DNA from: Halobacteroidaceae bacterium | GTDB taxonomy: Bacteria > Bacillota > Halanaerobiia > B1SED10-174 | Reading direction: 5' to 3' | NCBI GenBank assembly: GCA_003551665.1 | Contig: PUNE01000146.1 | Location: 1-64,000, forward strand | DNA length: 64,000 bases | Part shown: positions 6,116 to 60,776 of the stretch, in pieces | How the letters are laid out: each line of letters begins with the position of its first letter | Position numbering within the stretch: the stretch's first letter is position 1 | Translations under genes and position numbers: made by a program | The notes under the pieces: model-generated | What the model saw: only the letters and a program-made list of their open reading frames with translations | Databases searched by the model: none | Told to the model about the DNA's origin: nothing

Positions 6116-6625
6116 TCAAATATTGATTGTTAGATCTGACTTAAAACACCTCAAAAGCAACTGGCATTCAACATCTTCAATTCCCTCGATTAAATAAACC
6201 TGTTCCTGGAGAAATTCATTTAATTTCTCAGTGCTTTCAAGAAAAGCATGGGCCTGAACTGCTGCAGAACCGGTTTTCTGGTAAATGGCTTTAATTTCAT
6301 CTTTTGCATCCAGTTCAGAGATTACATTCTGGATTTTATCAGGCTCAACTTCAATCTCCAGAAAAGCCGGAACAGGATAACCAACCTTGGAAGCGTCAAC
6401 TACGGTGGTAAACTGGGTAATAATCCCCTCTTTAATCATGTTATTAATCCTCTCCCGTACGGCAACCCGGGAAAGATGGATTTTTCTTGCAAGTTCGGCA
6501 TACGAAATTCGGCTATCTTCAGTCAGGTATTCAAGGATTTTCCGGTTAACCTCATCCAATCCGCGAAAACGCAATGCTAATCCCCCCTCTAAACAATTGT
6601 TGGACAGAATCCCATTACTCCACAT
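6116..6625 (-). CDS. Lrp/AsnC family transcriptional regulator
   Basis: LDEVNRKILEYLTEDSRISYAELARKIHLSRVAVRERINNM HTH plus RAM-like C-terminus. Confidence 0.9.
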   Translation of the reverse strand: MWSNGILSNNCLEGGLALRFRGLDEVNRKILEYLTEDSRISYAELARKIHLSRVAVRERINNMIKEGIITQFTTVVDASKVGYPVPAFLEIEVEPDKIQNVISELDAKDEIKAIYQKTGSAAVQAHAFLESTEKLNEFLQEQVYLIEGIEDVECQLLLRCFKSDLTINI

Positions 6626-15291: not shown

Positions 15292-15386
15292 TGGCGGGAG
15301 CATGTGGGAATCGAACCCACCGCGGACCAACTAGCCCGCCATTGGATTTGAAGTCCAAGGGAGACACCAGTCCTCCAACTGCTCCC
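15292..15386 (-). tRNA. selC: tRNA-Sec (anticodon UCA)
   Basis: Minus strand GGGAGCAGTTGGAGGACTGGTGTCTCCCTTGGACTTCAAATCCAATGGCGGGCTAGTTGGTCCGCGGTGGGTTCGATTCCCACATGCTCCCGCCA: long variable arm, TCA anticodon, encoded CCA. Confidence 0.95.
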
Positions 15387-20291: not shown

Positions 20292-20350
20292 TTTTTAAAT
20301 CCCCTCTCTTTGGCCAAGCAGATTTAACCACCAAAGAGAAGGCCTCTTTG

Positions 20351-20452
20351 GCTAGCGGACGCGGTGACCATACCGCAGCTATCCTCGGACAGCATTTCGT
20401 CCTGGGGCAACGTCCCATCCCCAGGCACTATTACGCATGGCACCTACTCTGC
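20351..20452 (-). promoter_or_regulatory. tetrahydrofolate (THF) riboswitch
   Basis: Minus strand AGAGTAGGTGCCATGCGTAATAGTGCCTGGGGATGGGACGTTGCCCCAGGACGAAATGCTGTCCGAGGATAGCTGCGGTATGGTCACCGCGTCCGCT matches the THF riboswitch pattern (GAGUAGgugnnnnGCGUnAAGUGccnGGGAUGGGACGUUGcc..GGACGAAA...GCGGnnnnnCACCGCnUCCGCU) as I recall it. Confidence 0.9.
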
Positions 20453-20542
20453 CTGGTAATTTATTTTTGTTGCAGGTTCTTGATTATCAGTTTACAACAA
20501 AACTGCTCCAAATGCAAAAATTAATAATCATTCCCTTTAAGC

Positions 20543-39926: not shown

Positions 39927-40595
39927 TTAACGACCTACTAGTTCCATGGCCAGATCTTTGGCCGATGCTGCATCAGGTGCCCAGCCGTCGGCACCAATTT
40001 CATCGGAAAAATCAGATGTTACCGGCGCCCCTCCAACAATAATTTTCACCGAATCCCGTAACCCCTCCTCCTGCAGAATTTCAATTGTGTCCTTCATGGC
40101 CAGCATGGTGGTGGTTAGAAGAGCACTCATTCCAACTACGTCCGGTTTATGTTCCCTGACCGCTTCGGCAAATTTCTCCGGGGCAACATCCATTCCCAGG
40201 TCGATAACCTCCATGCCTCCGCTTTCCATCATCATCCCAACAAGGTTCTTTCCAATATCGTGCAGATCACCCGCTACTGTTCCCAGAACTACCTTGCCTG
40301 CTGTGGATACCTCTCCCTCTACCAGCAGGGGCTTGCAGATATCCATCCCAGAATTCATTGCCCGAGCAGCCATTAATACCTCAGGGACATACATATCCCC
40401 TTCTTTAAATCTCTGTCCTACAACATTCATGCCTTTAATCAAACCATTGTTAATAACATCTGCAGGGCTTGCCCCTTCATCAATGACCTTTTGGGTTAAA
40501 TCAGTGGTCCGTTCAACATTACATTCGATAATCGCATTTTGTAAAGCTTCAAAATCCGCCATGGTTCCCTCCTCCTTGTTTTTTGCCCAAACCAT
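39927..40595 (-). CDS. corrinoid (B12-binding) protein, MttC/MtgC-like; paralogue of 37763..38398; likely starts at MADFEALQ
   Basis: Nearly identical translated sequence to 37763..38398, DLHDIG B12 motif. Confidence 0.94.
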   Translation of the reverse strand: MVWAKNKEEGTMADFEALQNAIIECNVERTTDLTQKVIDEGASPADVINNGLIKGMNVVGQRFKEGDMYVPEVLMAARAMNSGMDICKPLLVEGEVSTAGKVVLGTVAGDLHDIGKNLVGMMMESGGMEVIDLGMDVAPEKFAEAVREHKPDVVGMSALLTTTMLAMKDTIEILQEEGLRDSVKIIVGGAPVTSDFSDEIGADGWAPDAASAKDLAMELVGR

Positions 40596-40840: not shown

Positions 40841-40857
40841 CTGCAAAAAGCGTACCA
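40841..40857 (-). promoter_or_regulatory. sigma-54 (-24/-12) promoter for methyltransferase operon
   Basis: Minus strand TGGTACGCTTTTTGCAG, GG-N10-GC, close to TGGCACG-N4-TTGCA; lies between the sigma-54 activator gene and the first corrinoid gene. Confidence 0.8.
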
Positions 40858-40926
40858 CCCCCTCCTTAATTCCTTCTCAACCCTTTACTGGCCAGCTATT
40901 CCTCTTTTTTGATATGTGAAGGAAAA

Positions 40927-40982
40927 AAAGAAAATGAGATTAAAGGAGTTTTTTAGTTTCCTTCTTTCTCATTTTTAGAATT
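40927..40982 (-). terminator. terminator-like hairpin downstream of sigma-54 activator gene
   Basis: Minus strand AAAATGAGAAAGAAGGA...TCCTTTAATCTCATTTTCTTTTTTT. Confidence 0.6.
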
Positions 40983-41068
40983 TTTTGCGGAATTAATTCT
41001 GGTTTTTTAGTATCTCAATGGTTTCCGCCGATTATTCAATTTTTCTCAATTTGATATTTTTTCTCAGA

Positions 41069-42955
41069 TTAAGAAATTCGGAGCTCTTTTAATTTTCTGT
41101 ACAGGGTAGCCCGGCTGATACCGAGGGCTGCTGCTGCCTTTTCTTTTCCCTCTGTTGAATAACCAAACTTCTGCAGGGCTTTGCTGATTGCATCCATCTC
41201 CAGAGCGTTTAGGGTGGGTATCGGGCCCACTTCCTCTCCTCTGCGGAAATTAAGGAGTCTCTCGGGTAAGCTTCTCAGAGAAATCTCCGGCCCTGTTTCA
41301 ATATTCACGGCATATTCAATAGCATTTTCCAGTTCCCGAATATTCCCCGGCCAGGGGTATTCCAGGAACATTTTCCTGGCTCCTTCCTGAAAATCATTAA
41401 TATTTTTCCCGAGCTGTGTGGAATAGAGGTCCAGGAAATAATGCATCAGCAGGTTAATATCTTCTTTACGCTGCCGCAAGGGAGGGATATAAAAGGGGAT
41501 AACATTTAGCCGGTAAAAAAGATCTTCCCGGAAAAGGCCTTCTTCAATAAGCTTTTCCAGGTCCTGGTTGGTAGCAGCAATTATCCGGACATCCACATCC
41601 TTTGTGCTTACTCCACCTACCCTTTCTATCTGCCTGGTTTCAATAACCTGCAGCAGGTCCACCTGAAAACTCAGGGGCATATCTCCGATTTCATCCAGGA
41701 AGATAGTCCCTTCGTTGGCCAGTTCAAACTTTCCAGGCTTCCCACCTTTTTTGGCACCTGTAAAGGCCCCTTCATCATAACCAAAGAGTTCTGATTCCAG
41801 AAGGGAATCAGGTATTGCAGCACAGTTAACAGTAACGAAAGGCTTTCCCTTGCGGTGGCTTTCTTCGTGGATGGCCCGGGCAAAAAGACTTTTCCCGGTC
41901 CCTGTTTCCCCCTGGATGAAAATTGTGGAATCAGTATTGCAAACTCTCCGCATTCTATTTTTTATTTCGATTAAATCCTGGCTGGTTCCTTTAATTGCAT
42001 CCAGAGTACCCTTTTTCTCTTCACTAATAATCTTGCTGGCCAGTTTTCTGATCTCCTCGCCCTTGCGGAAAGAAATAACCGAACCCTTAATCTCTTCTTC
42101 CTGGTAAATAGGGGTAATGCTGCAGAATAATTTCAGTTCCCTGTTCCCATCAAGTTCCAGAGAAATCTCCTTTTCATAATAATCGCTTCCCGGATCTTCC
42201 TGGAAATGAATTAAAGGGTCGAAATCCGGGAATACAGAGGATACATGCTGTCCCGTTTTATCACCATTAAGGGAGAGGATTTTGCGGGCAGATCCGTTAA
42301 TATTAATTATTTCACCCCTTGCATCCAGGGCAATTATCCCTTCATGAACCGAATTAATTACGGTCTCGAACTGGTTGGCCAGGGTGGTTACCTGCCCGCG
42401 CATTCTTTTTTCATTCAGGGTAGTTACAATAAAGCTGGTTACATTGTTCAGGAAATTAAGCTTTTTATCAAAATCATCAAGCAGGATTTTTTTCTGCGCT
42501 TCGTTTAAAGCAAGAAGGGAAACTGTACCTATTTTCCCCCCATTGTGGAAAATTGGGCGCATTGCAAAGGCAACCACCGAACATTTATCAGAGTAATCAC
42601 ACTGTTCACAGTAATGGCTCTGTTTGGTATCTTCAATCAGGATGTGGCTGTCCACCCAGGACTGAATTACCCGGTCTGTCGTGCAGTCCTCATTGTAAAC
42701 CACACCCACCTCTTTTTTATACCAGCCCGTTCCGGCAATTACTTCCAGGTTATTATCAATGATAGCCAGTTCAACATCCAAAACAGCAGCAAAAGCATCG
42801 GAAACCTGCTGTAAAAAACCTTTGATATCTTTGAGCTTTTCCATGGGATCCTTCCTTTCCGGAAACCTGGTAAAATATTCTTTCTCGTTTTGATTATAAC
42901 AAAACCCCAGGCCAGAAACAACCCTTCTCATATTGCGAAAAATAATACAAATCAC
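41069..42955 (-). CDS. sigma-54-dependent transcriptional activator (Cys-rich GAF-like sensor + PAS + AAA+ + Fis HTH); likely start MEKLKDIKGF near 42843
   Basis: GETGTGKSLFARAIHEES, ESELFGYDEGAFTGAKKGGKPGKFELANEGTIFLDEIGDMP, C-terminal AAAALGISRATLYRKLKEL. Confidence 0.93.
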   Translation of the reverse strand: MICIIFRNMRRVVSGLGFCYNQNEKEYFTRFPERKDPMEKLKDIKGFLQQVSDAFAAVLDVELAIIDNNLEVIAGTGWYKKEVGVVYNEDCTTDRVIQSWVDSHILIEDTKQSHYCEQCDYSDKCSVVAFAMRPIFHNGGKIGTVSLLALNEAQKKILLDDFDKKLNFLNNVTSFIVTTLNEKRMRGQVTTLANQFETVINSVHEGIIALDARGEIININGSARKILSLNGDKTGQHVSSVFPDFDPLIHFQEDPGSDYYEKEISLELDGNRELKLFCSITPIYQEEEIKGSVISFRKGEEIRKLASKIISEEKKGTLDAIKGTSQDLIEIKNRMRRVCNTDSTIFIQGETGTGKSLFARAIHEESHRKGKPFVTVNCAAIPDSLLESELFGYDEGAFTGAKKGGKPGKFELANEGTIFLDEIGDMPLSFQVDLLQVIETRQIERVGGVSTKDVDVRIIAATNQDLEKLIEEGLFREDLFYRLNVIPFYIPPLRQRKEDINLLMHYFLDLYSTQLGKNINDFQEGARKMFLEYPWPGNIRELENAIEYAVNIETGPEISLRSLPERLLNFRRGEEVGPIPTLNALEMDAISKALQKFGYSTEGKEKAAAALGISRATLYRKLKELRIS

Positions 42956-49401: not shown

Positions 49402-50790
49402 TTACGCACGGGCAAACCTGGCGGTGAAATGACGAAGAATTTTGGGCTCATACGCAAACCTGACGCCCTTAATTTTTTCGCGCCTGGCATCAAGCCTCCT
49501 GAAGGCCTCCACAACAAAATCCATGTGGTTATCAGTATAGGTCCTCCTGGGGACGGTCAGACGTAAAAGATCAAGATCAGGCATTATATTTTCTCCCGTT
49601 TCGGGATGCCTGCCTGCAAGAATAGTCCCTACCTCCACAGCCCGGACTCCACTTTCCAGGTAGAGTTCAATGGATAGGGCCTGGGAGGGGAACTGCTCCT
49701 GGGGAATATGGGATAGCCAGGTTTTGCCATCCACAAAAACTGCGTGTCCCCCGACCGGTTTTTGAATTGGTACTCCAGCAGCAATCAATTTTTTCCCCAG
49801 CCTTTCCACCTGCCCCACTCTCTGGGCAAGGTAGGCTTCTTCCTGAACTTCATAAAGACCTCGAGCCATTGCTTCCATGTCTCTTCCTGCCAGGCCCCCA
49901 TAGGTGACAAAGCCTTCAAGGGGAACCAGCCTTTCTCTTGCCTGCTGGAAAAGTTCCTCCTGACCTTCGGCAAAGGCAAGCAACCCTCCAATATTTACCA
50001 GTCCATCTTTTTTAGCGCTTATTGTGCAACCATCAGCAAGACAGAAAAATTCCCGAATTATTTCCCCAATAGATTTTTCTGCCTGGCCCTGTTCACGTTT
50101 TTTTACAAAATAGGCATTTTCGGAAAATCTCGCTGCATCCAAAAAAAGAGGCAGGGCGTATTTATTCGCAATTTCCCTGACTTTTTGCATATTACCCAGG
50201 GAAACAGGCTGTCCTCCACCACTGTTGCAGGTTATGGTCATCAGGATAAAAGAAATCTGTTCTTTACCCTTTTCTTCGATGAAATTAACCAGGGCTTCTA
50301 TGTCCATATCTCCCTTGAAAGGGTATTCGGAATTAAGGTCGTAGGCTTCCTGCCTGACCAGGTTTACACCCCGACCCCCGGCCATTTCAATATGAGCTTT
50401 TGTTGTATCAAAATGCATGTTCCCGGGGACATATTTGTTCTTTTCAATTAAAAGGGGAAAAAGCACATTTTCTGCTCCTCTTCCCTGGTGGGTTGGCAGA
50501 AAAAAAGGATAGCCAAAGATATCCCTCACCGCTTTTTCCAGGTTATAATAATTTCTGCTTCCTGCGTATGACTCATCACCAACCATCATCCCTGCCCACT
50601 GGTTATCACTCATGGCACCGGTTCCACTGTCAGTTAAAAGGTCAATAAAAACTTCATCACTTTTCAGTAAGAACGGGTTTAGACCCGCCCTATCCAGAGC
50701 CTGTTCCCTTTCAGATCTTGATAATCGACGAATTGGTTCAACAACTTTAATCCGGTAGGGTTCAGCCTGGGGCCAGTTTGATTCTCCCAT
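49402..50790 (-). CDS. tnaA: tryptophanase / tyrosine phenol-lyase family beta-eliminating lyase
   Basis: AEPYRIKVVEPIRR, IDLLTDSGTGAMSDNQWAGMMVGDESYAGSRNYY, PTHQGRGAENV, ISAKKDGLVNIGGLL, YEPKILRHFTARF. Confidence 0.9.
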   Translation of the reverse strand: MGESNWPQAEPYRIKVVEPIRRLSRSEREQALDRAGLNPFLLKSDEVFIDLLTDSGTGAMSDNQWAGMMVGDESYAGSRNYYNLEKAVRDIFGYPFFLPTHQGRGAENVLFPLLIEKNKYVPGNMHFDTTKAHIEMAGGRGVNLVRQEAYDLNSEYPFKGDMDIEALVNFIEEKGKEQISFILMTITCNSGGGQPVSLGNMQKVREIANKYALPLFLDAARFSENAYFVKKREQGQAEKSIGEIIREFFCLADGCTISAKKDGLVNIGGLLAFAEGQEELFQQARERLVPLEGFVTYGGLAGRDMEAMARGLYEVQEEAYLAQRVGQVERLGKKLIAAGVPIQKPVGGHAVFVDGKTWLSHIPQEQFPSQALSIELYLESGVRAVEVGTILAGRHPETGENIMPDLDLLRLTVPRRTYTDNHMDFVVEAFRRLDARREKIKGVRFAYEPKILRHFTARFARA

Positions 50791-50909: not shown

Positions 50910-51821
50910 TCAATGAGAGAATAAAATATAAACAATGTGGTTCCAGGCCCGTTCAAATTCATCCCGCCGGTAAAGACGGCGAACCGTCTCAGCATCCGGT
51001 GCAGCAGGATCATTGGTAACCACATATTCTTCGCCATCTCTTACAGTAAAACCGGTAATTACAACCAGGTGTCCGTTACTTTTTTCCTGGGGAGCACCCT
51101 TTAGCTCTCCTTTTCCGTATGCAATGCTGGCAATCATGGGGGTACCCGCGGCCAGCCACTCCCGAACCTCACCCATTCCTGTTGCCCTGTGGACAAAAGC
51201 CGACAAACCAACGCTGCCTGCAAAAGCAGTGTTAAAAGACCAATTGCCGTAAATTTCTGGGCCATAATCGAATACTCCCGCAGCAACATCAAGGGTGGCA
51301 ATATCCCTTCCATAGTAAGCAAAAACCATCGCCAAACAGGTCGGGCTACATATAACCCTGCGGTCAGGAGAAGGCTGGATCATTTGCGATCTGGGGGGAA
51401 CCTGAATTTCTCCAGTCCATTCTGATTTTACCTCGGGCATAACTTCTTCCCTGTTCCAGAAGGTGGCTCCAACCATGTCCAGCCGGGGCTTTTGGCCCTG
51501 GGTATCTGAAATGGCTTCAACCCCCAGCTCAAAAGCCTCGCATTTCGTATCAGCAAGGAGGGTGTCAACCTCCATCCGGTAGTTCCCTCGACGTGGACTG
51601 GTTGTGCTGGAGGAAATATTCCTGCCCCACTTGGCCCACTCCATCCAGGGTTCCCATTCCCCCCCGGGAAACCTGACCCGTAACCTCAAAACAAAATAGC
51701 TCTGTCCGGGAGTTTCGCCATTCCAGAACATTACAAGGCGGTTGAATTCAACGTTTTCCCTCTGCAGGGGAGCGCTTAAGTCACCACCTGAAAAGACCAC
51801 TGTGTTTTTTGCGCTGATCAA
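50910..51821 (-). CDS. C39-like cysteine peptidase family protein, no obvious signal peptide
   Basis: VPPRSQMIQPSPDRRVICSPTCLAMVFAYYGRD, NGHLVVITGF, VTNDPAAPDAETVRRLYRRDEFERAW. Confidence 0.8.
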   Translation of the reverse strand: MISAKNTVVFSGGDLSAPLQRENVEFNRLVMFWNGETPGQSYFVLRLRVRFPGGEWEPWMEWAKWGRNISSSTTSPRRGNYRMEVDTLLADTKCEAFELGVEAISDTQGQKPRLDMVGATFWNREEVMPEVKSEWTGEIQVPPRSQMIQPSPDRRVICSPTCLAMVFAYYGRDIATLDVAAGVFDYGPEIYGNWSFNTAFAGSVGLSAFVHRATGMGEVREWLAAGTPMIASIAYGKGELKGAPQEKSNGHLVVITGFTVRDGEEYVVTNDPAAPDAETVRRLYRRDEFERAWNHIVYILFSH

Positions 51822-53392
51822 AACCCCGACCTCCCCCGTCGCAAAACTTTGCCGGTGAAGACATTATCCTGCTTTCCTTCCTCCAGGACAATTTTTCCAT
51901 TAACCATAACATATTCAATACCAATAGGAGATTGGAAAGGTTCTGTAAAGGTGGACGTGTCAACAACCCGTTCGGGATCAAAAACCGTAATATCAGCAGC
52001 AAATCCTTCCCTTAATAATCCCCTGTTCCAAAGTCCAAGTCTCCAGGCAGGCATTCCGGTCATCTTAAAGACCGCCTTTTCCAGGGGTAGAGCCCCCTGT
52101 TCCCTTACGTAGTAACCCAGCACCCGGGGGAAAGTCCCGAAATTTCTTGGATGGGGCCTTCCTTCCCTATCTGTTACAGCACTTCCGTCAGAACCCACCA
52201 TGGAAAGAGGATTTTTGAGGACTTCCTGGACATCTTCCTCACACATTCCAAAACGGATCATGGTGGCCTCAGCTTCACTTTCCATAACCAGGTATATCAG
52301 GGCGTCTGATCCGTGCATTTCCAGCTGTTGAGCAATCTCGGAAATTCTCATCCCCTCGAATTTTTTGAGCTTTCCCTCGGGAAGGAAGGAAACCATTATT
52401 TTGGCAAACTCTTCCTCGGGCTCACTGCGATTAAGTCCTTCCCGCACCCGACAGTAAAAATCTTCATTTTTGAGGTTATCCAGCATTTTTCCAGTACCAC
52501 CGTTATGGGCCCAGGAAGGAAGCAGGGCGCTGAGTGAAGTGGAGGTGGCAATATAGGGGTAAACATCGCAAGAAATATCTATTCCCCTATCACGCAGTTC
52601 CTGCATGTAGGCCAGGGTTTCCTTTACTGCTCCCCAGTTTTTTTCCCCGCCTACTTTATGGTGAGAGACCTGGACTGCAACACCAGATTTTCGCCCTACT
52701 TCCCCACTTTCCTGAACCGATTCCAGCAAACGATTACTTTCATTCCGCATATGGGTTGCATAAATACCCCCATAGTTTGCAACAATTTTACCCAGGGCCT
52801 GAAATTCCCCGGCATTACCGTAACAGGAAGGAGCATACAAAAGTCCGCTGCTAAAACCAAAAGCCCCTTCTTTCATACATTCTGCAAGAATTTTTTTCAT
52901 TTCTTCAATCTCTCCAGGAGTAGCCTCCCTTTCTTCATTACCAATCACGCATTTTCTAAGGGCTCCATGGCCAACAAGCCCGCCAATATTGGTGGCAGGT
53001 CTGGCTTTTTCCAGGGCCTCCAGATATTCCCCATAGCCAGACCAGGATAATTCAATACCCTTTTTACCCAGAGAATTTTTGAAGTCCTCGGCAGCAACCC
53101 CATAAGCCGGAGCAACTGAAAAACCACAATTTCCAACTATTTCTGTTGTAACCCCCTGTTCTATCTTGCTCTTGCCCAGGTTATTTAACATGTAGATGGT
53201 ATCCGAATGGGTGTGAATATCAATGAAACCGGGGGCAATTACACCACCCTGAACATCAATAATCCGGTCCGCTCTTTCCTCAATTTTCCCCATCCCCTCG
53301 ATTATTCCATCTCTAATTAAAACATTTCCGTAAAAAAAGGGAGCTCCAGTTCCATCGATAATTTTTCCATTTTTAAACAGGATTGAACTCAA
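51818..53392 (-). CDS. N-acyl-D-amino-acid deacylase (D-aminoacylase, amidohydrolase superfamily)
   Basis: GGVIAPGFIDIHTHSD, GNCGFSVAP, THMRNES, QVSHHKVGG, VGSDGSAVTDREGRPHPRNFGTFPRVLGYYVRE. Confidence 0.92.
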   Translation of the reverse strand: MSSILFKNGKIIDGTGAPFFYGNVLIRDGIIEGMGKIEERADRIIDVQGGVIAPGFIDIHTHSDTIYMLNNLGKSKIEQGVTTEIVGNCGFSVAPAYGVAAEDFKNSLGKKGIELSWSGYGEYLEALEKARPATNIGGLVGHGALRKCVIGNEEREATPGEIEEMKKILAECMKEGAFGFSSGLLYAPSCYGNAGEFQALGKIVANYGGIYATHMRNESNRLLESVQESGEVGRKSGVAVQVSHHKVGGEKNWGAVKETLAYMQELRDRGIDISCDVYPYIATSTSLSALLPSWAHNGGTGKMLDNLKNEDFYCRVREGLNRSEPEEEFAKIMVSFLPEGKLKKFEGMRISEIAQQLEMHGSDALIYLVMESEAEATMIRFGMCEEDVQEVLKNPLSMVGSDGSAVTDREGRPHPRNFGTFPRVLGYYVREQGALPLEKAVFKMTGMPAWRLGLWNRGLLREGFAADITVFDPERVVDTSTFTEPFQSPIGIEYVMVNGKIVLEEGKQDNVFTGKVLRRGRSGF

Positions 53393-53411: not shown

Positions 53412-54317
53412 TTAGACTAGTCGGGAAATTAATTCATTCTGATCCCCGGCAAGGAAAAAAACCGGAGGTATTTCCAGCATGGTATAAGCCCCGGGCTGCA
53501 TTTTCATGGTTGCCCGGCCAGATGAAACCATTACCTGTCCGGTTACAGCAGGGTTGGTTACCCGGATATCATAAGAAAACATCTGGTTGTGAGTTTTGCC
53601 TGCAATCCCCTTGCGATTTATCCGAACGCCGTGCCCCACATCGACCAGCTCGCTTACATTATCCGTGTCTTCAATAAAAGTCTCCCCGTTGGAAAAATAA
53701 GGGTCCTGCAGAATTTCTGATGATATATCCTCAAAACTGGTCCCCGGGTAACGCTGAATATAAACCATTCGCCTGTGAATCCCGGTATCAACGGGAATGG
53801 TGATGACCAGGGCGTCCTCTACACCCGCAATTTCTTTTACTGCACAGGTATGGCCCATGCTCATTCCCGGGCCAAAGTTGGTGTAGGTCAGCCCCCGGGG
53901 AGCCATCATTTCCAGGGTTGCCCGGACTATGGAATCCGTTCCCGGGTCCCAGCCTGCGGCGATTATTGCTGCCTGTCCTTTTTCTATTGCCACCCGGTTT
54001 AAATCTTCTTTAAGTTTAAGCAGTTCGTTTCCATGTAAATCAAAACTATCAACAATGTTCAGACCCTTGGACATTACCTCCCGGGCAACTTCCGGCACCT
54101 TCCGGGTGGGAATGGCCAAAATGGCCACATCGGCTTCCTCAATATCGTCAATTTTATCGGACACCAAAGTCTCTCTGTTTTCTTCCCTGCATTTATCTAT
54201 TGCTTCAGGGCGTTCGATGATACCCTTTAACTCCATATCAGGGGCAACTTCAACTGCTGAAACCGCTCCTTTCCCTACATTGCCATAGCCAATTACCACC
54301 ACTCCGATTTTTTTCAT
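53412..54317 (-). CDS. ddh: meso-diaminopimelate dehydrogenase family
   Basis: VVIGYGNVGKGAVSAV, AAGWDPGTDSIVRATLEMMAPRGLTYTNFGPGMSMGHTCAVKEI. Confidence 0.88.
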   Translation of the reverse strand: MKKIGVVVIGYGNVGKGAVSAVEVAPDMELKGIIERPEAIDKCREENRETLVSDKIDDIEEADVAILAIPTRKVPEVAREVMSKGLNIVDSFDLHGNELLKLKEDLNRVAIEKGQAAIIAAGWDPGTDSIVRATLEMMAPRGLTYTNFGPGMSMGHTCAVKEIAGVEDALVITIPVDTGIHRRMVYIQRYPGTSFEDISSEILQDPYFSNGETFIEDTDNVSELVDVGHGVRINRKGIAGKTHNQMFSYDIRVTNPAVTGQVMVSSGRATMKMQPGAYTMLEIPPVFFLAGDQNELISRLV

Positions 54318-54362
54318 CCTGATCCCTCCATCAACAAAAAAGGTTCTTTTGCCTGAATATAG

Positions 54363-54379
54363 AGCAAATTCCGTGCCAC
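54363..54379 (-). promoter_or_regulatory. sigma-54 (-24/-12) promoter upstream of ddh operon
   Basis: Minus strand TGGCACGGAATTTGCT, full match to TGGCACG-N4-TTGC(A/T), GG-N10-GC. Confidence 0.88.
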
Positions 54380-54585
54380 CTCCGGTTCAAGTTTGATAAG
54401 GCGAAAGTTTTGGTCCTGACCAAGGCTGGTGGTTTTGTTGCCCTGACTCTCTAAACAAAAACCCGGGGAAATTTTGATTCAAATGTTTTGTTGTCCTCCC
54501 CCTTGTTTAAAATATCAACATTTAATTAATGGGACCAATTATTTCCTCAAAAATATTATCAAAAGATTACTCATTAAGGAATTAT

Positions 54586-54601
54586 TGGCACGATTCCTGC
54601 A
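54586..54601 (+). promoter_or_regulatory. sigma-54 (-24/-12) promoter upstream of membrane-protein pair
   Basis: TGGCACGATTCCTGCA, GG-N10-GC, one mismatch to consensus. Confidence 0.75.
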
Positions 54602-54698
54602 CTATTTTTTATTAACCTTTTCCGGAAAAAATTTTTTTTCCTAATAGAAAGGAAAGACAAAATTATTCAGGAAAATAGACTATACTCTATAAATTTAA

Positions 54699-55460
54699 TT
54701 GGAGGCCTTTGTTATGATGATGGATCTTCTTCTTTTGCAGATAACATTCATTCTCTGTTATCTTATTCTTTTTTTCCCCCAATTAATTCGCTTTTCTCCC
54801 GAAAAAGCACGCCTCTTCAGGTGGGTTATAATTTCCTTAATGGTGATTAACGGCTTTCTGGGGCTTTCTTTTGTGTCCCGGCAGAAGGAACTTACCCTTC
54901 AGGAAATTGCTATTAGCGGGACCGGGGTTTTAATTTTCCTTACCCTTCTCTTTTCCACCGCTTTTATTTTTCTGGAATTCTGGCCAAAAAAAATTCGAAA
55001 ATTTAAACCCTTAATTATTTTAGTTCTGCTTATTCCCGGTCTTTTTTTCATCATTACATCCAGCAGTTATAATTTTCCATATACCGACTATAGGCTGGAA
55101 CCACCAGAAAAACCTCCAGGAAATATCCAAACCCTTGATGTTATTGATTATGAAATCAAAAGGGTAGTTCCTTATCTTTATTCCTCAATTTATTATAAGA
55201 TAGACATAACTTTTTACCACCAGGAAGAGAAAATCCAAAGGAAAGAGTGGCCAGTTCGCCTGGAGACTGTCCGGGGGAGCGAGCCCCTGTTGGAAGCAAT
55301 TATTATCCCTGAAAACAGGGAAGGTTTTTTAGCCGGGTTTTATCAGCCAGTTCTGATTATCGACACCCGGGAGTACCTTGTTCTTATGGGGGATTATCCC
55401 GAACGTTTTGCTTATAGCAGGGAAATGCAACGCAACATAAATACCTTCATGGGATGGTGA
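54699..55460 (+). CDS. membrane protein of unknown function (about 4 predicted TM helices, then a soluble domain)
   Basis: Long hydrophobic segments (LLLLQITFILCYLILFFPQLI; FIFLEFWPKK; LIILVLLIPGLFFIIT); no family recognised; sigma-54 promoter upstream. Confidence 0.6.
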   Translation: MEAFVMMMDLLLLQITFILCYLILFFPQLIRFSPEKARLFRWVIISLMVINGFLGLSFVSRQKELTLQEIAISGTGVLIFLTLLFSTAFIFLEFWPKKIRKFKPLIILVLLIPGLFFIITSSSYNFPYTDYRLEPPEKPPGNIQTLDVIDYEIKRVVPYLYSSIYYKIDITFYHQEEKIQRKEWPVRLETVRGSEPLLEAIIIPENREGFLAGFYQPVLIIDTREYLVLMGDYPERFAYSREMQRNINTFMGW

Positions 55461-55467
55461 TAGAAAA

Positions 55468-55764
55468 ATGGAAGCACTGGCTCTTTTTATTGGCGGAATT
55501 ATCCTCGCTATTTTCCGTTATTTATTCTGGATAACCCATGAATACGGTACACCTTTCCTAATTTTGTTATTAATTATCGGAATACTTGGAATCCGTTCTA
55601 TTGTCCTTTCTTTCAGTTCACTTCATTTTTTTGTGCAATGGAAAAGAAAAAAACTGTACCGGTACTGGACAACCTCGTACGAACTGTTTCAGGATTGTCT
55701 GCGGGGTTTATTATGGTGTTTTTCCCTTCTGGTCGTTTACCTGGGCATTTCTTTCTGGCTTTAA
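55468..55764 (+). CDS. small membrane protein of unknown function
   Basis: 98 aa with 3 hydrophobic segments, 7 nt downstream of the previous ORF. Confidence 0.55.
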   Translation: MEALALFIGGIILAIFRYLFWITHEYGTPFLILLLIIGILGIRSIVLSFSSLHFFVQWKRKKLYRYWTTSYELFQDCLRGLLWCFSLLVVYLGISFWL

Positions 55765-60623: not shown

Positions 60624-60640
60624 TGCAATTTCTATGCCAA
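60624..60640 (-). promoter_or_regulatory. sigma-54 (-24/-12) promoter upstream of dpp-like operon
   Basis: Minus strand TTGGCATAGAAATTGCA, GG-N10-GC. Confidence 0.72.
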
Positions 60641-60776
60641 CGAACTTTTCCCAAATTATTGCCCCGAATAAGCCCTTTTTATAAATGCGTTTAAATTTTT
60701 GAACAAATTATTTTTTTGTTGTGCAAATACCGTTACAGCAATGTGATGAATTGTAGTTAATTATTTTCACCTATAA

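Follow-up and report, generated by a model that had tools for sequence, protein, structure and literature searches.

A probable divergent pair of sigma-54 promoters between ddh and two membrane-protein genes in an uncultured bacterium

The spacer between ddh, a diaminopimelate dehydrogenase gene, and two membrane-protein genes raises the question of whether sigma-54 promoters lie in it facing both ways, and if so, which activator would serve them. A first-pass annotation of the window (the whole 64,000-nucleotide stretch of DNA analysed here) had proposed a divergent sigma-54 pair at this point, under the control of an activator encoded at 41069. We followed up this proposal by comparing five genomes overall, three of them for the ddh spacer, and by using a site score whose weights we set from the known sigma-54 consensus.

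Two -24/-12 elements in the ddh spacer

The spacer occupies positions 54318-54713 and measures 396 bp, from the start of ddh at 54317 to the ATG of the first membrane-protein gene at 54714. We regard this ATG as the likely start because a GGAGG ribosome-binding site (54701-54705) precedes it; the first-pass annotation had given the spacer as 380 bp. A TTG at 54699 was also considered as the start and is unlikely, as it overlaps the ribosome-binding site. Both elements of the proposed pair could be read in the spacer, each facing outwards.

54363-54378, minus strand: sigma-54 -24/-12 promoter element of the ddh operon, TGGCACGGAATTTGCT, predicted transcription start at about 54352
54586-54601, plus strand: probable sigma-54 -24/-12 promoter element of the membrane-protein genes, TGGCACGATTCCTGCA, predicted start at about 54612

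Their inner edges are separated by 207 bp, close to the 210 bp first estimated. The ddh-side element (minus strand, 54378 to 54363) matches TGGCACGN4TTGCW completely, as had been claimed for it, with GG at -24, GC at -12 and 10 bp between them, and it faces the ddh operon. The plus-side element is also near consensus, making a single departure, CTGCA for TTGCA, and retaining the GG/GC core with the correct spacing. No RNA family was found in the spacer. Elsewhere in the window a tetrahydrofolate riboswitch and a selenocysteine tRNA lie on the minus strand at 20350-20453 and 15296-15386, respectively. The genes on either side of the spacer are as follows.

53412-54317, minus strand: ddh, meso-diaminopimelate dehydrogenase (NCBIfam TIGR01921, 263.6 bits against a cut-off of 180.6, residues 1-301)
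51818-53392, minus strand: D-aminoacylase-like amidohydrolase, second gene of the ddh operon (Pfam Amidohydro_3)
50910-51821, minus strand: C39-family peptidase, third gene of the ddh operon (Pfam PF13529)
49402-50790, minus strand: tryptophanase / tyrosine phenol-lyase family enzyme (NF009709, 697.9 bits, cut-off 285)
54714-55460, plus strand: membrane protein of 248 aa, no Pfam or NCBIfam match, relatives in the genomes G001, G002 and G004
55468-55764, plus strand: small hydrophobic protein of 98 aa, no Pfam or NCBIfam match

The ddh product exceeds the curated TIGR01921 cut-off over its full length, which identifies it as the dehydrogenase, and the amidohydrolase encoded next to it is presumably a D-aminoacylase. 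The plus-side element does face two membrane proteins without a family match, as the first-pass annotation had it. A structural model of the larger one, with N-terminal helices and C-terminal strands, is of low confidence (mean pLDDT 57) and too poor to compare; counterparts of the 98-aa protein adjoin it in G002 and G004. An operon for oligopeptide uptake lies near the ddh cluster, as do genes for a second C39 peptidase and an M55 D-aminopeptidase, and this gene content suggests that the neighbourhood serves to exploit peptides, D-amino acids or fragments of the cell wall.

Chance expectation and conservation

We place both elements above chance because of the shuffle and genome-wide counts. 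Among 4000 dinucleotide-shuffled versions of the spacer, none had a minus-strand site to equal the ddh-side one, and one had a plus-strand site to equal the plus-side one. By pattern count the 2.87-Mb genome holds six exact matches to TGGCACGN5TGC, two of which fall in this spacer and are the only ones within the 64-kb window; a reversed-pattern control gave 46 matches at up to one mismatch, scaling to about 1.5 exact matches expected genome-wide. Three sites with a score of at least 0.93 were observed in the window, against a mean of 0.1 in shuffled windows. All nine sites scoring at least 0.90 in 184 kb of the genome were intergenic and faced a gene start, in a sample that is biased in that most stretches were picked for containing an activator, the unbiased part being the window with three of three. 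Two of the nine face the corrinoid gene at 39927-40595 and an ABC gene on C24, respectively. The genome-wide intergenic statistics come from pattern counts together with these selected stretches.

An orthologous ddh (85% identical) adjoins the same membrane-protein genes in G002 and G004, and the ddh-side element is kept in both of these relatives (TGGTACGAATTTTGCA in G002, TGGTACAAATTTTGCA in G004) with almost no change in its distance from ddh. The spacers of these two genomes, only about 175 bp long, do not align with the 396-bp spacer, and a search with the whole spacer as DNA found no homologous copy in six genomes. The ddh-side promoter is well supported as a working one because its element is conserved though the surrounding spacer has diverged, and we consider it near certain that this element is a sigma-54 promoter. 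The more distant homologues of ddh, those of Ignavibacteriales included, have no sigma-54 element before ddh and stand in a different gene neighbourhood.

No plus-strand element was found upstream of the same membrane-protein gene in G001, G002 or G004; in G001 this gene occurs without ddh beside it. As it is absent from all three relatives that keep the membrane-protein genes, the plus-side element is probably lineage-specific and, as far as can be seen, particular to this genome among those compared, which leaves room for it to function. It could be argued that only the ddh-side element works, and that the plus-strand match only resembles a promoter and has no function, the genes behind it using an ordinary one. 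The absence from the relatives would fit such an account, as would a -10-like TATACT that sits near the start codon, at about 54681-54686. However, a sigma-70 consensus scan upstream of the membrane-protein genes returned no promoter, and both the rarity of so good a site among shuffled spacers and the placement of all nine strong sites, partly biased as that sample is, speak against a look-alike. We find this account rather unlikely, and the plus-side element, statistically strong and well placed, is probably a sigma-54 promoter.

A lysA-linked activator and its putative site

The genome encodes one sigma-54 (PF00309) and nine clear sigma-54 activators. A recurrent palindrome at the oligopeptide uptake (opp) operon of the window points to one of them.

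60624-60639, minus strand: sigma-54 element of the opp (peptide uptake) operon, conserved in five of five genomes
60688-60705: palindrome of the TGTTCAA-N4-TTGAACA type, candidate activator site for opp, conserved in five of five genomes

Across the five genomes the palindrome lies 39-49 bp upstream of the -24 element. It has the form TGT-N12-ACA, and TGT-N10-12-ACA is the commonest form of activator site in Clostridiales, where the sites are mostly found 100-250 bp upstream and some activators are encoded apart from the genes they control (PMC6615313). The same type of palindrome also stands, in all five genomes and perfect in two, upstream of an operon beside lysA that encodes a C26 peptidase and an activator. 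This lysA-linked activator is a protein of 628 aa with PAS, AAA+ and Fis-type HTH regions, unlinked to the ddh locus. Its gene, which stands with that of the C26 peptidase (G000 C74, L131 3856-6571), has no sigma-54 promoter of its own nearby. Because the palindrome precedes the activator's own operon, and none of the other activators' promoter stretches examined held a good copy, we infer that TGTTYAA-N4-TTRAACA is the site of the lysA-linked activator.

In three relatives a second ddh operon is likewise preceded by an opp-type palindrome, of which this genome has a poorer copy. In five genomes a conserved sigma-54-like element stands upstream of the second diaminopimelate dehydrogenase gene (G000 C43, L075 5061-7036; L076-L079), and in at least three of them an ankyrin-repeat gene is situated between the two. 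Two further substrate-binding-protein operons of this genome (L150 1501-1855 and L154 1468-1571) carry opp-type palindromes upstream of sigma-54 elements, one of which is weaker (score 0.82). In G001 (C242, L074 10273-10290) an opp-type palindrome, TGTTCAGTCTGTTGGACA, occurs about 380 bp upstream of the membrane-protein gene, inside an unrelated reading frame. Separately, a TRAP-transporter operon (G000 C103, L133 1-8377) contains another D-aminoacylase-like gene, its own activator and a sigma-54 element at 6498-6513. On a short contig (G000 C94, L080 887-1144), three sigma-54-like matches that crowd together in the vicinity of an integrase-like gene face no clear gene and are probably due to chance or a repeat.

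Candidate activator sites at the ddh locus

The opp site with its fixed spacing had no match in the ddh spacers, and a scan with variable spacing returned one weak candidate between the promoters. Three features of the locus were considered.

54504-54520: weak candidate activator site between the promoters, TGTTTAAAATATCAACA, TGT-N11-ACA, score 10.5
54056-54073: candidate activator site within the ddh coding sequence, TGTTCAGACCCTTGGACA, ranking second among the matches of the 64-kb window
54412-54425: inverted repeat TTGGTCCTGACCAA (TTGGTC-N2-GACCAA), 33 bp upstream of the ddh -24 element

The site at 54504-54520 has a non-standard, shortened spacing and is equalled in 3.3% of shuffled spacers. 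Between 54390 and 54580, where the first-pass annotation had advised a search for shared activating sequences, it is the only match to the regulon-wide activator site, and a marginal one. The inverted repeat, together with a half-copy near 54529-54539, was tried as a set of shared activator sites and rejected; it is so short as to be expected by chance, and it is missing from the relatives. The repeat was also called terminator-like.

The site inside ddh is placed downstream of the ddh promoter, by about 290 bp; relative to the plus-strand promoter it is upstream, at about 510 bp. Its score is reached by 0.4% of shuffled ddh genes and sometimes by shuffles of the 64-kb window, and the corresponding codons of G004 (score 19.2) and G002 (21.9, perfect) carry a site too, making it present in three of three genomes. 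The site is coding DNA, and synonymous resampling gave scores of this order 3-8% of the time; the match could be a coding coincidence. That it acts as a two-way enhancer, downstream of the promoter for the ddh operon and upstream for the membrane-protein promoter, within a new peptide/diaminopimelate sigma-54 regulon, seems to us improbable.

Control of the two promoters

The reading we favour, with a probability of roughly 45%, is of two outward-facing sigma-54 promoters of different age. The ddh-side element would be the ancestral, conserved promoter of an operon for ddh, the D-aminoacylase-like protein, the C39 peptidase and a beta-eliminating lyase, and the plus-side element would probably be a genuine promoter that this lineage acquired for the two membrane proteins. 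At each of them sigma-54 RNA polymerase would stay silent until an ATP-driven activator loops over to it, the likeliest being the unlinked protein encoded beside lysA and the C26 peptidase gene rather than the 41069 protein. The palindrome assigned to this activator precedes peptide-uptake and diaminopimelate operons, and at the ddh locus it may be represented by the copy inside ddh and the weak copy between the promoters. We infer that transcription proceeds from both elements and serves the use of peptide or cell-wall fragments. Control of both promoters by one activator is possible, and we put it forward tentatively.

Both promoters may instead be real and answer to separate activators. The plus promoter is of separate origin and there are nine clear activators to draw on. 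In addition, G002 and G004 have in common a palindrome upstream of the ddh promoter, AAACTYGAAGTTT, which may be the site of another activator and is not seen in this genome. However, common control is the simpler arrangement given the shared spacer and the theme of peptide and D-amino-acid use in the cluster, and we consider separate control somewhat unlikely.

The activator originally put forward for the pair, and the sigma-54 element next to its gene, are the following.

41069-42955, minus strand: sigma-54 activator proposed by the first-pass annotation (Pfam Sigma54_activat, PAS, HTH_8)
40842-40857, minus strand: sigma-54 element adjoining this activator gene and facing a corrinoid/methyltransferase operon, TGGTACGCTTTTTGCA, identical in five of five genomes

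This protein, one of the nine activators, has PAS, AAA+ and Fis-type DNA-binding domains, and its orthologues in G001-G004 are 85-91% identical. Its gene belongs to the same conserved cluster as the spacer, at a distance of about 11 kb, and it is among the two activators that the three genomes with this ddh clearly share. Both points would suit control of both directions from the spacer. TGAGAAA repeats lie upstream of its adjoining element in all five genomes, and in the ddh spacers of three genomes the best matches to these repeats are equalled by 23-54% of shuffles, showing no enrichment. Because the repeats of its own promoter are lacking there, control by the 41069 protein is not supported, an argument that holds if the repeats are binding sites and is weakened if they are part of a terminator; we judge such control distinctly unlikely. 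The stretch at 40842-41068 of the window, between the activator gene and the corrinoid operon, holds the element and the repeats upstream of it, which include an inverted pair and could also be a terminator.

Comparison with known systems

The hydrogenase-3 promoters of E. coli are controlled by FhlA. Lutz et al. 1990 (cited in PMC3844500) are said to have described them as divergent and NtrA-dependent. The probable ddh pair is like them in consisting of divergent sigma-54 promoters. The divergent arrangement is already established in other bacteria, as zraP/zraSR and the sox genes demonstrate, and to these our analysis adds a probable pair in an uncultured bacterium with close relatives from soda-lake sediment (filed as Halobacteroidaceae). 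In Salmonella and E. coli, zraP and zraSR have divergent sigma-54 promoters under ZraR (PMC4987338), and the likeness extends to the placing of both promoters in one spacer. A single known activator, whose gene lies in one of the two units, serves both there, whereas the ddh spacer has no adjacent activator gene and sharing is a possibility. The soxB and soxC promoters of Bacillus thuringiensis share one SoxR site (PMC4941409) and likewise belong to opposing sigma-54 units at a Gram-positive catabolic locus. For these the shared site and the sigma-54 dependence have been tested, whereas the ddh spacer offers a weak candidate site predicted from sequence.

In B. subtilis a sequence in the rocG-rocABC region serves RocR as a downstream activating sequence and also as an upstream one (PMC4941409, PMC3844500), and its position downstream of a sigma-54 promoter is that of the candidate inside ddh relative to the ddh promoter. 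The roc genes run in the same direction with the site 1.5 kb downstream, whereas the ddh candidate is a stretch of coding DNA, again recognised by sequence. None of the groups in Table 1 of the Clostridiales survey (PMC6615313) is given ddh, D-aminoacylase or an opp operon as a target. Comparison of the genomes shifts the first activator candidate from the 41069 protein to the lysA-linked one, and the candidate sigma-54 regulon that results, joining oligopeptide uptake, two diaminopimelate dehydrogenases and a lysA-adjacent activator, is testable and the more useful outcome of this work. It resembles the sigma-54 regulons of Clostridiales (PMC6615313) both in its theme, the catabolism of amino acids and peptides, and in its TGT-N10-12-ACA sites.
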